NCBI GenBank assembly: GCA_947561715.1
Contig: OX387200.1
Span: forward strand, 3,598,501 to 3,662,500
DNA length: 64,000 nt
DNA from: Ascidia mentula
Lineage: Eukaryota; Chordata; Ascidiacea; Phlebobranchia; Ascidiidae
Reading direction: 5' to 3'
This document shows, in pieces, positions 5,941 to 53,106 of this stretch. The notes beneath the pieces were generated by a model. It did no database searches and was not told the origin of the DNA. It worked only from the letters and a program-made list of their open reading frames with translations. Made by a program: the position numbers and the translations under genes. Within the stretch, counting starts at the first letter, position 1, and every line of letters begins with the position of its first letter.

Positions 5941-6842
5941 AGTGCACAAATTAAATAGTTTTCTTATCAGCAATGTCGATTAAATTTAACTTGCTCTTAC
6001 AGCTGCCGCCTCCAGCAAGCAATCACGAGTGAATGTCTGATACGTCGATATCGCTACAGCGAAACCCGCGCCGCCCAAACTTTTTTGCATGTACACAACT
6101 TGCAAACGTGCCAGAGGCGTTTGTGTGGATTAAGAATACAAAACCAACAAAGCTGTCTCTTTCACAATAAAAAAGCAATTAAAGGCGCCAGGGTTTTTGA
6201 AACGTGTCATTAGTGACAATGCCCTAGGCACTAAACTGAATTTCACATAGGGAATGTGTTGGAGCAATAAAACAACTTCACAAACAAATCGTGTTTGCAA
6301 AAAATAATTAGTCTAACTTTCGAATTTTATAGGCTTTTTTGGTGTAAGTCATACCTCTGCACAATAAACAAAAACCTTGAAGTCATTGCCAAAACATTTA
6401 CATTCATTAAAACGTACCTGATTGCAAAGTTCCCTGTTGCTTGGATGTGAAAAGCGGGAGATCGTTTTACATGCAAGCAGATGTTATTTAAAATACTCTT
6501 CTACTCGAAAACCTTCAAAAAATACGTCATTGTATTTAAAACTCCAGCCTACCAATTGCTGCATACATATAACCGCCTAAAACAGTAACAAAATCTTACT
6601 CTTTCTTGAAGCTTATATTTCCAATTGCCCAAACCGTTTGTTTCGTCACAATATGACCTACTATGGCTCATAAACGTAATTCTTTATTGAAATTCCGTTG
6701 TCTATTTTACTGGTGGGAGAATATATGCAATTTGCATTGATTTGATCCAACAATGCCCAAAAACTTAATCAGAGTTGAAAAGTGGTAATACAATATTTTC
6801 TAAACAGTTAATGTTGGGCTTGACCCTTGTCGCGTGTTTATG
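5941..6842. other. Non-coding stretch
   Basis: No supported gene. A minus-strand donor-like site (CAATCAG|GTACGTT, about 6413-6424) could end an untranslated exon upstream of the short coding exon at 5914-5940. Nothing else stands out. Confidence 0.4.
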
Positions 6843-25800: not shown

Positions 25801-28800
25801 TTTACTAGATTGACTATATCGAACAAAGTCAAAACTTGGTCTCATTGAAATTGATACCGAGAATCGATTATTCTCGACCGAGGGGCGTCAAAAGTGACGG
25901 GCAAGATAAAGAAAAACGTCGTCTGTATAAGAGACCACCACAAAAACTCTTTGATGTTGATGCTATAAGGTATGTTTACTTGCTGGATCTTTATTCCCCC
26001 CAAAAAAAGTGCTTAATACAGAGAATATCTTACAACCAATCAACCATTAAAGAGAATAACGTCGTCAATCACTCTTTTTGGGTAGTTTTGGATCCAATCA
26101 ACCATTTCCTAGTTTCCACAGTGATTTTATCGTTTTTGTATTTTGAATTGTATTTAATTTTTACTTGTTTGTGTACAGAGCGATTGGCGGTGACGTGTCC
26201 AGTGAATCAGACTCTCTTGTGTTCGAGGGCCAGCGTTACAGCAGGAAGGGTTTTCTCTACAAAAATTTCACGCTGAACTCAATTGTAAGAACATCTGATA
26301 CACATTCTTCATGATAAGATAACTAACCCTGTTTCATTTTAGTGCGTCGATGGAATCAAACCAACACTATCCGAACTGGAAAAGTTTGAGGAACAGCCAG
26401 AAGGACTTGACATTGAGTGTAAGTTGTTTTTACTGCAAGAACCGTGGATTTTCATACATAATTTTTTGCAAATGTGGTTTTTCAGTGGTGGCCGACAGCA
26501 CCTCAAAGTCGGACAAGTCCAGTCGATTTGCCCCTGGTGATAATGTGGAAGTTGCCGAAGGTGAATTGATAAATCTACAAGGAAAAGTGATGAGTGTTAA
26601 TGGGAGCAAGGTTATGATGATGCCAAAACACGAGGAACTGCATGTAAGTCATTGCATACGTTTAAGCCTAAACTGAGAATACCTTTTTTGCCACTCTTAA
26701 ATAATGTTTTTATAGAAGAAAAATTTAGCGTTGTGCAATTTTGTGGTTAACTTAGTTGACCTGTAGTTAAATGAAACAATTTTTTTGACCCACTGCATAT
26801 ACATGAAATCACTAATGAATATTATGGTACAAAGATGATACCAAATAATTTGAATGTGATTAGAAGCTGGAATAGAATGAAAGTTGACGATGCAGCAACT
26901 GTAATATTGACTTGTGTTTAGGATCCCCTGGAGTTTTTGGCTTCAGAACTTCGTAAACACTTCAAGATGGGAGACCACGTAAAAGTGATAGCTGGTCGAT
27001 ATGAAGGAGACACTGGTATGACTATTTGTTGCATCTGGTAATTGTGTCAAAATACTAGAACAATTTTGCAAATGCTGTGTTTCATGTTAATTGTCTACTT
27101 GTGAAGGTGAGGATTTATTTGATAGAAATCAATTTCTGTTGCATTTTGTATTGAATTGTGTCACATTTTCCAGAGGTTTTGCATGTCCAAGTGGCTGAGA
27201 TACTGATGAAATTATGTGTTGTAGCAAAAAATAGTCAAATAGTAAAACATTTATAAACTTATTATGTAGGTTTAATTGTTCGTGTCGAGCCAAAGATGGT
27301 TGTGTTGTTTTCTGATCTCACAATGCACGAACTCAAAGTTCTTCCGAGAGATTTACAACTCTGTGCCGACGTCAGTTCGGGAGTAGACTCTGTTGGAAAG
27401 TTCCAGTTTGGCGATCTTGTCCTGATTGAGTAAGTTTGTGTTTTCTTTTTGTTAGACAACATCATTGTATGAAAAGTTACATGTAAAAGGAAAGTAGCTG
27501 TTGTAAATAATTGGAAAAATATAAAAGAGCAGTTAAGCAGCATTGTTAGTTACAACACTTCGCAGACTGGCATAACTAGCAAGTTAGCAGAATTTCTTTA
27601 TGTCTTAGCCATGACTTTTGTGATAAAAATTGTGTGGCTACCTTATTACCTTGGCTGTCTGCGTTTTTCATGTTGATATGTATTTTCACCCAGCTTATTT
27701 ACACACACACAAACCATGCTATAATTCACCCATAGCCAGTTAGCTGGTTCAGAAGCCTGAGGAATATATTAATGTTATTATTTCATGGTTGCCTGCAACT
27801 GTTTGTTTTGTTTACAGCAACCAAACAGTGGGTGTGATAGTCAGACTTGAAAAGGAATACTTCCAAGTGCTCTCCATGCATGGCAAGGTATGGGTTTAAC
27901 TGATAATGAATGTATTCATTTGTGAGCATTAAATATTTGTGCTTCAGGTTTTACATTTAAAACACCAAGCTGTAACAAGGAGAAAGGATACAAGGTTTGC
28001 GATGGCCTTGGATGCTGAACAGAATAACATTCAGTGTCGAGATATTGTGAAAGTCATCGATGGCCCTCACGTTGTGAGTACATGTAGCAAGCTTTGTACT
28101 GTAGAGCAGCGTTTCTCAGTCTCCGGTCTGCATAATGATTTTTACTGGTCTCCCTTTTACATTATATTTATTTATTCTGGTATATGTGTACTTTTGCTAT
28201 ATTAAATTTTCTTTTTAATGATATGTACTGTTCATTACATTTTAGCTGAGATTTTACTAAATCACCATCCGTAAAATTTTTTTGAAACTTTACCACTCTG
28301 CAATTGCATAAAAGAGTTCTGTAGTGTATAACTAATTTTTACTACTTCTTAATGAGGTAACGATAGCTCGATTTAAAGCAACAAATAATAATATATATGT
28401 TTAATTTTTTGGTCCATAGGTTATTATATATATATATTCTATTTTAAAAAATATATATTGCTGTATATTTTTTGTTCTGTTGCAATAAAAATAATTTCTG
28501 CTGGAACTGATGACTCTCGTAACTTATAAAGGGCCAAGAAGGTGAAGTGAAACATTTGTATCGTGGATTCGCGTTTCTGCAAAGTAGAAAAGTTATCGAT
28601 AACGGAGGAATTTTTGTTGTTCGAACTCGACAGGTTACTCTGGCTGGTGGATCCAGGGTCAGTATTAAATAACTGTAGCGATACCAAATAGTAAGCATGA
28701 AACTGAATCACCCAGACTGCTTTATGTGCACACATTCTGCAGTAAATGTGCTATTCCAAAATAAAATCATTTGCTTTGCTTGAGAAATACCATGATATTT

Positions 28801-31800
28801 ACCAAAGGGCATTGGGAAACAAATATACGTCCAAAAGTTTTTTGTTAAATTATAACTTTTCTATTCTGATCGCCTGTTGGGAAATTCTGCACCGTGTTAA
28901 CGACATTCTTACCCACAGCCTAGTGGTGGAGCTGGAGTTTTTGCTCCAATGAGTCCGAGAATTGGAAGTCCTGCTCGTAATGACAGCGGGAACCAGAGAT
29001 CAGGAGGTGGAGGAGGAGGAGGGGGCGGAAGAGGAAGAGGGCAGCGTGACACTGGAATCATTGGTGAGGAATTTTAAAAATATTTGTTTTTAGTTACAAG
29101 TTTGGAGGCTGAAATATCGAAATGTGAAAACTATCAATTGCTGATTTATTGTATGACTGTTCAGCATGATTCATAAATTATCCTTAATTTGTTGTTTTAT
29201 GAAGGTAATGTAATAGGTATATATTCCATTCTGAATATTTTTGTCTGGTAACTTCACCCATGCTGATCCATACAAAATATACAAAGAATGTGCGATATTA
29301 TTTTCAGGCCAAACAGTAAGGGTAAGGCAGGGTCCGTACAAGGGACACATCGGCGTCGTAAAAGATGCAACCGAGTCGACAGCGAGAGTAGAACTGCACG
29401 CAACTTGCCAAACCATCAACGTTGACCGAAGCCGACTTCAAACCACGTTAGTACAGAATTATGATTATATTAGAATAAACAACATGTATATTTTCACTTA
29501 TAAACTGTTGTCATGTGATTGAGACTGATTTGTGCTGTGCTCGACTGACTTGCTGTACTTTGGCTGGGAACTACCTGTAAAACCAGTTACTGTTAAGTTA
29601 ATGATGTGCACAGTAGTGTTATATCAGAATATTTGCATTGCTACAATGCCAACTAGCAATATTCTTACTTTGGCATTTATTTTCAAAGCAAATCTTTATT
29701 TATTAACAGAGATCATACCATTCCTGACAATGAGTTGTTGTATAAAATATGAATAATAATGCATACTTAACATTACAGAGATCAACGAAGACCTGGTGCA
29801 GGGGGTAGAACTTCCACATATGGAAGGACCCCAATGTATGGGTCACAAACCCCTATGTATGGAGGTTCACGCACACCTATGTATGGATCGCAAACACCAG
29901 TACATGAAGGTCAGTGTTGTTCGTTTAATTAGGGAAATAGTTAACGGCACATTGGGAGGTTGGTCCACCTTTGACATTGCTGCAAATTTATCTGAGGAAA
30001 GATTTTCTTTTGAAGTTATTGTCACTGCTTCCACTGATAAATGCATTGATGTATCAAAAAAAACTTGGGCTAGAAATCTAAACCATATAGACGTGCAAGC
30101 CTTATCTGTGACGTCGGTCTGGTCAGCTCCTTATAATCATGGAGCTACACCAATCACGCCATTTAAACTGATGATGGCATAAGTTTTTGCCGAAACGTCT
30201 TCTTTTAAATTTTAATGATATGTCAAATTGAAACCTACGACTTACTATTTTGAGTTTTGAGACAAAATATTGTGTAGCCTGTGGTGAGGTAAGTTGCATT
30301 CTTGTATCCTTAATGACAACATTTTCTGTACATTGTGTGCAGGAAACCGCACTCCGCATTACGGAGCGCAGACTCCGTTACACGACGGCAGTCGGACGCC
30401 CCAACGTGGGGGCAGCGCATGGGATCCAACCAATGCAAACACCCCGGCTCGTCCTGATAACTTTGATTACGATTCCCCCTCACCAGCTCCATATGGTGGG
30501 GCTACACCTAACCCCCAAACCCCAGGGGGTTATACTTCTGAGGAGCAGTCCCCTGCAGCCCCATACAGTAATGCCCCACAAACCCCCGGTGGGTATGGAT
30601 CAGATCGTACTTACTCCCCGTACGGAGGTCCAACGCCTTCTCCTCTGGGCACCTATGATGGTGAGTACCATGGGTTGTTTAACTTGTTTTTTGCTTACAT
30701 TGTTAAACTGCTAACAAATACCGTTGGATTAAACAGAGGTGTAAGTGGTCTATATTGTCATGAGTTCTTGTCATATTTGAAATCCTGTTTAGTTTATATG
30801 TGCAAAAAAAACATAATATTGCAAAGCTGCAGACAGGGTGTGTACACGCACTGTTTCGACCTGTAAGATCTCATCAGTGCAGCTGTTGAGTGGCACTGTG
30901 CTAGCTTTTACACTAGCAGGCACACTAGTCTCCACTTTGTGGTACCTTTCGGTCAACGTCGATCTGCAGGGTACCCTATACTAGGTACCGAACAACAGAG
31001 ACGACGAACCACTGTGGAGCGCACTATGGCCAAACAGACTGTTTAGTTTATATATGAGAAATTCTTGAAATAAAAATATTCTAATCCCAAAGTATGTGCT
31101 GTGTTCTTTTAATGCTAAGTCCCAAGTGTTTTGCCTATAGGGTTGCAGCACTTGTCATAAATTTTTTTAGAATGCTTATACAGCAATTGAACCTACCGTA
31201 TTTTACGGACCATAAGGCACAATTTAAATCCTTTTTTTCCTCATAAATTGATCATGCGCCTTATAAGCCGGTGCACCTAATGTATGGATCAATGTATGGA
31301 TGCTTTATTGCCTACACTCAAAACCAGTACCGATACTATGATTATATAAATAAACCACCGTCTTACACAATAAACTACAGTAAAAGCAACTAGCAAATCT
31401 GTGATATTCAGTAGGCTCATTTTTTCTTTTGCTCATTGTACTATTGTGACTTGCTTACATTTATTACGTAACAAGTAAACTTTTATTAATGAGCTTTATA
31501 CGGTAACCCATACTCCTTAAAATACGTTGCGTTCTATAGCCCGGTGCGCCTTATGTATGAACAAAAAACTAATCAAAGCAATTTATTGACAGTGCGCCTT
31601 ATAATCGGGTGCGCTTTATGGTCCGTAAATACGGTACCTGTTATCCCCAAACAGTTTTTTCAATTGAATATTTTTGTTATATTTCAGCTTCTCCAAGTCC
31701 AATGGGTTCTGCGTACGGTAGCAGTTACCAACCAACTCCCTCTCCAGGGGCGCCGCAACCCTCCCCAGGAAGTTATCAGCCCTCCCCCTCACCTGGAATG

Positions 31801-34494: not shown

Positions 34495-35478
34495 ATGGCC
34501 GACACTACAAGCTTCATGGATGTTAAAATACCAACAGTTGAAATTAAACCTGAGGGTATTAAAATGCCTGTATTGGGGTTGGGCACCTCCAGAGCCAAAG
34601 CAGATGACTTGTACAACGCCATTACCACTGCCATAGACCTTGGTTATCGTCACTTTGATTGTGCGTTCATATACGGAAACGAAGATGTAATTGGTGATGC
34701 CTTGAAAGCTAAAATGGACGAAGGAGTTGTGAAAAGGGAGGATTTGTTCATCACCACTAAACTATGGGTAACTTTTAACAGACCCGAACACATGCAAGAG
34801 TGTTTCGACGAATCCTTGCGATGTTTAAAACTGGATTATGTTGATTTGCATCTGCTTCATGGTCCGCACGCATGGCAATATTGTGGAATGGACGTCTTTA
34901 CCCATTATTTGAATCCAGTTATGGACGAGGAAATGGATTACGTTGACACTTGGAACGCAATGCAAAAGTTCAAAAGTTCTGGTCGTGCAAAATTGTTGGG
35001 GGTGAGCAACTTTAACGAGTTTCAGTTAAAGAGACTTCTGCGCGAATCCAGCCACAAACCCAGCATAAATCAAATAGAAAGTCAGCCATACTTCAACCAA
35101 GATTCTTTGGTCAAGTTGTGTCAGTCTAACCACATTGTAGTAACAGGTTTTTGTCCAATTGGTTCTGCAGATCGTCCCAACGTTGAAAAGCGAGGTCCAC
35201 TTGTCCTGGTTGATCCAACACTAAAACGTTTAGCTGAAACAAGAGGCAAAACTCCAGCACAGATCGCTCTAAGATTCGCCATACAAAGAGGTCTTGTCGT
35301 GATTCCAAAAAGTGTGAACCCGTCGCGGATAGAGGAGAACATGAATGTATTCGATTTCACACTGACTGCTGCTGAAATGCGTGAGATATTTTCGCTTGAA
35401 AAGGGACAAAGACTTTGTCTTTTTTTAATGCACATAAAGCATAAGTACCACCCATATCGCGAGAATTATTCCGAGTAA
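34495..35478 (+). CDS. Aldo-keto reductase, copy 1
   Basis: An intronless frame of 327 residues. The AKR catalytic tetrad is complete: Asp55 (HFDCAF), Tyr60 (IYGNED), Lys89 (FITTKLW) and His122 (LHLLHGPHAW). The NADPH-binding region IPKSVNPSRIEEN lies near the C-terminus. Such enzymes reduce aldehydes and ketones in the cytosol with NADPH. The other copies start at the Met equivalent to 34516 (MDVKIP), so the seven extra residues MADTTSF are unique to this copy. It lacks a 13-residue segment in the substrate loop (after GMDVFT) that copies 2-5 have. It is the copy nearest SUPT5H, about 870 bp downstream on the same strand. Confidence 0.95.
   Translation: MADTTSFMDVKIPTVEIKPEGIKMPVLGLGTSRAKADDLYNAITTAIDLGYRHFDCAFIYGNEDVIGDALKAKMDEGVVKREDLFITTKLWVTFNRPEHMQECFDESLRCLKLDYVDLHLLHGPHAWQYCGMDVFTHYLNPVMDEEMDYVDTWNAMQKFKSSGRAKLLGVSNFNEFQLKRLLRESSHKPSINQIESQPYFNQDSLVKLCQSNHIVVTGFCPIGSADRPNVEKRGPLVLVDPTLKRLAETRGKTPAQIALRFAIQRGLVVIPKSVNPSRIEENMNVFDFTLTAAEMREIFSLEKGQRLCLFLMHIKHKYHPYRENYSE

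Positions 35479-51411: not shown

Positions 51412-53106
<1,695 letters not shown>

Follow-up and report, generated by a model that had tools for sequence, protein, structure and literature searches.

Schistosome Sm-alpha repeats are short, dispersed repeats bearing a hammerhead ribozyme (HHR), and they have been described as SINE-like. The closest described systems for the element reported here are the non-LTR retrozymes of metazoans (Cervera and de la Pena 2020, PMC7229834), small elements with an HHR which that report describes from many phyla. The first-pass annotation of the locus had considered the combination of a SINE-like insertion with a hammerhead to be rare, a view that this phyletic breadth does not support. 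Penelope-like elements (PLEs) have been named as mobiliser of retrozymes, as a "strong candidate" in PMC7229834 and as "likely candidates" in PMC7761336, with a similar statement in PMC11722881. Earlier authors only suspected PLEs, and the passages on mobilisation in PMC7229834 and PMC7761336 leave open which enzyme mobilises animal retrozymes. The insertion signature of PLEs as given in PMC3846280 consists of inverted pseudo-LTRs (pLTRs), a target-site duplication (TSD) of 8-10 bp and an optional 31-bp tail on one inverted pLTR. According to the experiments in PMC11167929, a PLE cuts and extends both strands in vitro, with two internal starts of reverse transcription (RT).

The window, which is the whole analysed stretch of 64,000 nucleotides from Ascidia mentula (contig OX387200.1, positions 3,598,501 to 3,662,500), carries a single direct copy of such an element (Table 1). 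We consider it very probable that this is a metazoan non-LTR retrozyme, non-coding and non-autonomous, with a PLE-driven cycle as proposed below. The 239-bp insertion with exact 15-bp flanking repeats described in the first-pass annotation was confirmed. Over 30795-31038 the copy is 97.6% identical to the unit of arrays found elsewhere in the genome, the likeness continuing into the ATAT of the target. Its 3' end is at the site designated B below, and the zone that matches site A does not serve as an end in this copy.

Table 1. Features of the insertion and of the adjacent host gene, in window coordinates; the caret marks the position of the end at site B
Feature	Position	Strand	Evidence or remark
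Target-site duplication beside the element's RNA 3' end	30785-30799	.	CTGTTTAGTTTATAT, exact 15-bp match
Target-site duplication beside the element's 5' end	31039-31053	.	CTGTTTAGTTTATAT, exact 15-bp match
5'-truncated monomer of the 291-bp retrozyme unit	30800-31038	minus	239 bp between the duplications
Type I hammerhead ribozyme	30825-30884	minus	motif parse, fold, genome core count
Zone matching reverse-transcription start site A (unit ~220-227)	30812-30819	minus	ends of other copies
Start site B (GCAC^ATAT)	30795-30803	minus	is the 3' end of the window copy
Eight-T run between sites A and B	30804-30811	minus	sequence
Reading frame over the SPT5 exon upstream of the insertion	30294-30659	plus	SPT5 chain match, E 7e-19
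SPT5 KOW domains	26350-26676 and 29241-29522	plus-strand gene	domain matches

The element looks as if it sits in an SPT5 intron, after the exon listed in Table 1 and antisense to the gene, with an exon end near 30660 inferred from GTGAGT and the next exon, near 31690, placed by eye. In this orientation, transcription of SPT5 itself would produce the ribozyme in antisense only. Downstream of the SPT5 gene is an aldo/keto reductase open reading frame of 327 aa (34495-35478), and a SNORA13 snoRNA match at 52739-52866 is barely over the gathering score. A second CTGATGA...GAAACGTC motif, which resembles a minimal HHR, is found at 30156-30226, ~600 bp from the element; it belongs to a short dispersed repeat, similar stretches of which were seen at L033:2550-2618 and L048:1864-1899. 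One minimal HHR form, searched for as a pattern across the window, was not found.

By the rules for type I HHRs, all core bases are present on the minus strand from 30884 to 30825, as the first-pass annotation had recognised. The 7-bp stem I (AGCTGCA/TGCAGCT) is followed by CTGATGA, by stem II (GATCT/AGGTC, one T-G wobble), by GAA and by the 4-bp stem III (ACAG/CTGT). The cleavage base is the C at 30832, and cleavage is predicted between 30832 and 30831. The core pattern CTGANGAGN11CGAAAC has 2403 matches in the 195.8-Mb genome as compared to 3 for the reversed pattern, and is thus not a chance occurrence. The minimum-free-energy RNA fold of the window copy is that HHR, with an energy no better than that of shuffles (z 0.06) and a centroid that differs. 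HHR stretches do not stand out in their folding energies, and the minimum-free-energy structure of a 100-nt stretch from family 2, the sister family, does not contain the HHR fold. For the circular 291-bp unit the minimum free energy is -93.1, compared to -75.6 on average in 100 single-base shuffles. All Rfam hammerhead families scored below the gathering score in the window, the best being the RAGATH-1 hammerhead (26.6 bits, cut-off 56.3) and Hammerhead_3 (20.6 bits, cut-off 48.5). With relaxed limits, sub-threshold hammerhead matches were obtained in the array of locus L031 and none, at E up to 1, in L083 or in the PLE locus L078. This silence is not read as absence because the RF00163 profile gave no match anywhere, neither in this genome nor in 14 control genomes.

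Of the 75 copies whose core is intact (L031-L050 and L059-L083, duplicates included), 64 have a stem I, stem III and cut site identical to the family-1 consensus; family 2 misses this test through its seventh stem I pair. When a second subfamily (L083, 285-bp unit) is compared to the family-1 array unit, the stem and core positions are identical throughout (41 of 41), versus 152 of 214 other aligned positions in an alignment with many gaps (p 5e-6, loops left out and the count picked after viewing the alignment); with loops included, the comparison of HHR and remainder gives p 0.047. Variation among family-1 copies is low everywhere and slightly lower in the HHR (15 of 1914 letters) than in the rest (66 of 5430). 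The suggestion that intact stems reflect selection thus receives some support from the subfamily comparison and none from covariation, which was not demonstrable as the stems are identical in both subfamilies and the older copies have decayed.

The element is multicopy, as had been proposed, with at least 86 matches in the genome (40 of 1794 candidates scored). Forty family-1 loci (39 plus the window) were examined by sequence, and removal of seven apparent duplicates, recognised by their flanks or an identical layout (L035, L060, L061 and L077 of L034; L049 and L050 of L042; L062 of L044), left 33 independent loci. Other copies extend 5' past the first base of the window copy: 52 more bases are followed there by another unit. 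The resulting head-to-tail arrays have a period of 291 bp, which is the 239 bp of the window copy plus the 52 bp absent at its 5' side. Locus L031 consists of two opposed arms with 8 and 5 pieces, 9 of them full length; tandem copies also occur in L032, L033 and others. The unit is non-coding, the longest stop-free run in a tripled unit being 96 aa, and no LTR, PBS or PPT was noticed. The longest string common to both flanks measures 10-15 bp in 23 of the 33 independent loci (in L031 the common string is an AT repeat), and 10 loci do not have a 10-bp TSD. The ends or TSDs of L037, L042, L043, L063, L064, L066 and L072 are without explanation. Decayed hammerhead-bearing relatives were detected at L036:1242-1295, L038:4823-4975, L041:493-673 and 6412-6470, and L052:925-995, in four cases within a region that also holds younger retrozyme insertions; they suggest a long residence in this genome. 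Thirteen diverged relatives are spread over 0.9 Mb (G000:C71:14.25-15.17 Mb), with the main matches all on one strand, and are perhaps part of a larger amplified unit.

RNA 3' ends in family 1 are mostly at two places, A (TTTGCA^ATAT, ~17 nt past the HHR cut) and B (TTTGCAC^ATAT, ~38 nt past the cut). In family 2, both sites are at ATAT, ~18 and 44-50 nt past the cut as judged by eye. The expectation of copies that share the boundaries of the window copy thus held at the 3' end, with two sites in place of one, and failed at the 5' end, which varies. Nearly half of the independent family-1 loci (16/33, end classes assigned by eye) are head-to-head pairs in which both outer ends are RNA 3' ends. 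These comprise 11 A/B pairs (counting L065, with a B arm of only ~11 bp, and L073, with its A end re-read within the TSD), one B/B pair (L044, ends 239 and 243), three with B and another end (L047, L048, L067) and one that is unclear (L072). Among the 17 non-inverted loci, 12 are of the window type and end at B; the others end at A (L075), at 216 (L032), at 208 (L037) or at 17 (L063), or are a small hairpin with one B end (L042).

The same pattern was found in two additional sets. From table coordinates, 24 further family-1 loci were classified as 12 inverted (9 A/B, which became 10 upon re-reading of C70:1326296, 1 B/B, 1 other/B) and 12 direct (6 ending at B, 4 at A, 2 elsewhere); the filter removed a new direct locus, C67:11610922, with no effect on the inverted counts. 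In family 2, inverted loci predominate (33/40), with 29 A/B, 4 B/other and neither A/A nor B/B, and the 7 non-inverted ones end at B (4), at A (2) or elsewhere (1), the complex locus C70:6587127 being counted as direct. If the same ends were paired at random, A/B would be expected in about half of the pairs. Binomial tests against this expectation, loci with an unclassed end excluded, gave p 1.9e-9 for family 2 (29/29) and p 0.003 and p 0.005 for the family-1 sets (11/12 and 10/11), for A/B limits which were set after the ends were seen and for BLAST ends which are blurred by a few bases of microhomology (family-2 and PLE ends are mostly BLAST coordinates). Inverted junctions are head-to-head rather than opposite in 34 versus 1 cases in family 2 and in 18 versus 0 in one family-1 set.

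A minority of 5' ends coincides with the predicted cut. In one family-1 set, 4 of 23 direct loci have a 5' end within one base of it (p 9e-5; six of the 23 are uncertain, starting at query 66-70, where the query's own repeat starts), and the other 19 start elsewhere. The bases at cut-site 5' ends were read for C70:7601774, C1:2087292, L070 and L032; the inner end of C70:1326296 likewise begins at the cut, and in L067 the end on the 3' side is one base beyond it. Insertions starting at the HHR cut would be indirect evidence for cleavage, and as such genomic footprints of ribozyme activity in vivo. Multi-unit arrays presuppose circles or multimers that remained uncut.

GIY-YIG elements are common in this genome (at least 121 places, 150 of 382 candidates scored), several of them with frames of 800-890 aa. 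For the autonomous GIY-YIG PLE family of locus L078, a query over the HHR and the 5' region gave 49 matches in 27 clusters. Its ends group at query 286-300 and 326-335, ~38 nt apart, with one at 231 and three running through. The same head-to-head arrangement is seen in 17 of the 27 clusters, with 13 A/B, 2 B/B, 1 A/A and 1 B/other at the family's own two sites; duplication of one another seems to account for three of the 13 (C1:10.20-10.22 Mb) and likewise for the two B/B clusters, both of which have an older copy (73-74%) lying outside an A end. The 10 non-inverted clusters end at A (8) or B (2), which is unlike the retrozymes. Neighbouring GIY-YIG domains within 6 kb, among the 121 listed places, are head-to-head in 17, in the same direction in 6 and tail-to-tail in 0 cases. 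The two PLE sites are ~61-65 and 100 nt past the inferred HHR cut, as compared to 17 and 38-50 nt in the retrozymes. A search for a tail common to retrozymes and PLEs (BLAST in 10 PLE loci, and by eye) returned weak or AT-rich likeness only. The HHR-like motifs that flank PLEs (L052, L053, L054, L055, L078, L079) have no true helix III as judged by eye, its place being taken mostly by palindromic AGCT or ACGT, with AGTT in one L053 copy; this is as expected of PLE hammerheads working as dimers.

Three other explanations were weighed. The first-pass annotation had read the element as a SINE transcribed by Pol III, with a tRNA-derived head and a captured HHR, moved by a LINE. A short single copy with a 15-bp TSD and weak A- and B-box-like strings fits such a SINE. 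The A-box-like TGGCCATAGTG is at element position 7 and the B-box-like GGTTCGTCGTC, with 2 mismatches, at position 29. These starts are 22 nt apart and hence not at the tRNA spacing that had been claimed, the distance from A to B box in tRNAs being ~44 nt (box consensus sequences are those in general use). The best match of TRGCNNAGYNGG (2 mismatches), at position 136, is 3' of both B-box-like sites with 2 mismatches (29, 45). Among 300 random 239-bp segments of the window, 124 have an equally good A box, 45 an equally good B box and 9 have both. ARAGORN found no tRNA in the window, and Rfam none in 30700-31150 at E up to 10. Because other copies run on in the 5' direction, the window copy starts where it was truncated, and its first base does not mark a promoter head. 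In the six array units inspected, 7-9 consecutive T lie inside the unit towards its 3' side and would be expected to stop Pol III. Tandem and head-to-head arrays, two 3' ends and the lack of an A-rich tail also argue against a SINE. With no tRNA-like head at tRNA spacing and no fixed 5' end, a tRNA-derived SINE was rejected as extremely improbable. We consider it just as implausible that the family is a tandem HHR satellite DNA that spread without reverse transcription, through unequal exchange or the excision of DNA circles. Near-identical units in head-to-tail arrays are what a satellite would show, but dispersed monomers with TSDs already contradict this, as do truncated 5' ends, two preferred 3' ends and the start of some 5' ends at the RNA cut site.

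Less remote, though still improbable, is that the 291-bp unit is the terminal repeat of an autonomous PLE whose coding copies are rare or outside the examined set, so that the copies described here would be solo pLTRs. Published pLTRs carry HHRs, are tandem and inverted and have a one-sided tail (as described in PMC3846280 and PMC11167929), and the retrozymes show this same architecture. Against it, when 105 retrozyme loci were compared to the 121 listed GIY-YIG places (from scoring of 150 of 382 candidates), just one had such a place within 5 kb, and most copies seem to be free-standing. A tblastn search with one PLE open reading frame (L078) gave no match in 20 retrozyme regions of 7-9 kb (L031-L050). 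Finally, the mostly palindromic AGCT/ACGT of the PLE hammerheads is, by eye, unlike the 4-bp stem III of the retrozymes.

We thus return to non-autonomous retrozymes that are served by PLEs. Because the retrozymes, the L078 PLE family and the PLEs of the cited papers show the same two-site inverted scar, PLE machinery most likely inserts these elements. Genomic arrays would be transcribed by read-through, and the RNA would cut itself at each HHR and, to judge from the literature, may be circularised. An RT/GIY-YIG endonuclease encoded by a PLE would bind this RNA and cut both strands of an AT-rich target, with cDNA synthesis starting at A or B, just 3' of the HHR. Extension of one strand would yield a direct copy, whose 3' end (as in the window) would be at B more frequently than at A. 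Extension of both strands would yield a head-to-head pair, in most cases with A at one end and B at the opposite one. Tandem arrays would result from reading around a circle or along an uncut multimer, and 5' ends at the HHR cut from run-off on cleaved RNA. Points that speak against this cycle are the greater distance of the PLE sites from their HHR cut, the failure to find a PLE with the retrozyme tail in the loci compared, the direct copies that end at A and the loci lacking a 10-bp TSD.

On balance, we lean slightly towards a more specific proposal, namely that retrozymes are RNA parasites of PLEs. The PLE machine would extend both strands with a near-obligatory A/B asymmetry and would handle retrozyme RNA alike without an evident common site sequence, and the HHR would be positioned just 5' of the starts because cleavage sets the template end. 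In the in vitro experiments with the Anolis PLE, as given in PMC11167929, the start site did not differ between strands and the HHR was dispensable for insertion; the asymmetry and the need for cleavage are therefore not borne out by that experiment. As the scar is common to two retrozyme families and a PLE family within one genome, the identity of the mobilising enzyme becomes directly testable. The A/B asymmetry, in turn, would limit in quantitative terms the ways in which PLE-type reverse transcription can be initiated on both strands of the DNA.

The schistosome Sm-alpha repeats, compared by description, are alike in being short HHR repeats, and no tRNA-like head was found here. Compared to the metazoan non-LTR retrozymes, as characterised in PMC7229834, the Ascidia elements are alike in unit length (291 bp, within 150-450 bp), type I HHR and tandem copies, in being non-coding with a GC content below 50% (0.478), in TSDs of more than 4 bp (10-15 bp in 23/33 loci, 15 bp in the window) and in the presence of PLEs in the same genome. 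They differ in their A/B-ended head-to-head pairs, a feature not encountered in the description of PMC7229834, whose main text does not contain the word "inverted". A literature search over titles and abstract openings, with subscription papers mostly outside its scope, found no report of inverted A/B retrozyme insertions, which is no proof of absence. The newt satellite and axolotl retrozymes, as presented in PMC7229834, share a tandem unit of ~300-350 bp and a type I HHR but their helix III is weak, with one or two base pairs, as opposed to the 4-bp stem III found here. With the Penelope/Poseidon PLEs, to the extent covered in PMC3846280 and PMC11167929, the elements share inverted arms, a similar TSD length, a tail at one inverted 3' end and an HHR near the RT starts. 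They are distinguished from these PLEs by having no open reading frame (neither RT nor GIY-YIG), by an HHR with helix III and by RT starts that are nearer to the HHR; sites A and B are separated by ~21 nt (family 1) or ~26-32 nt (family 2), as compared to the published PLE values of 31 and 30-40 nt.
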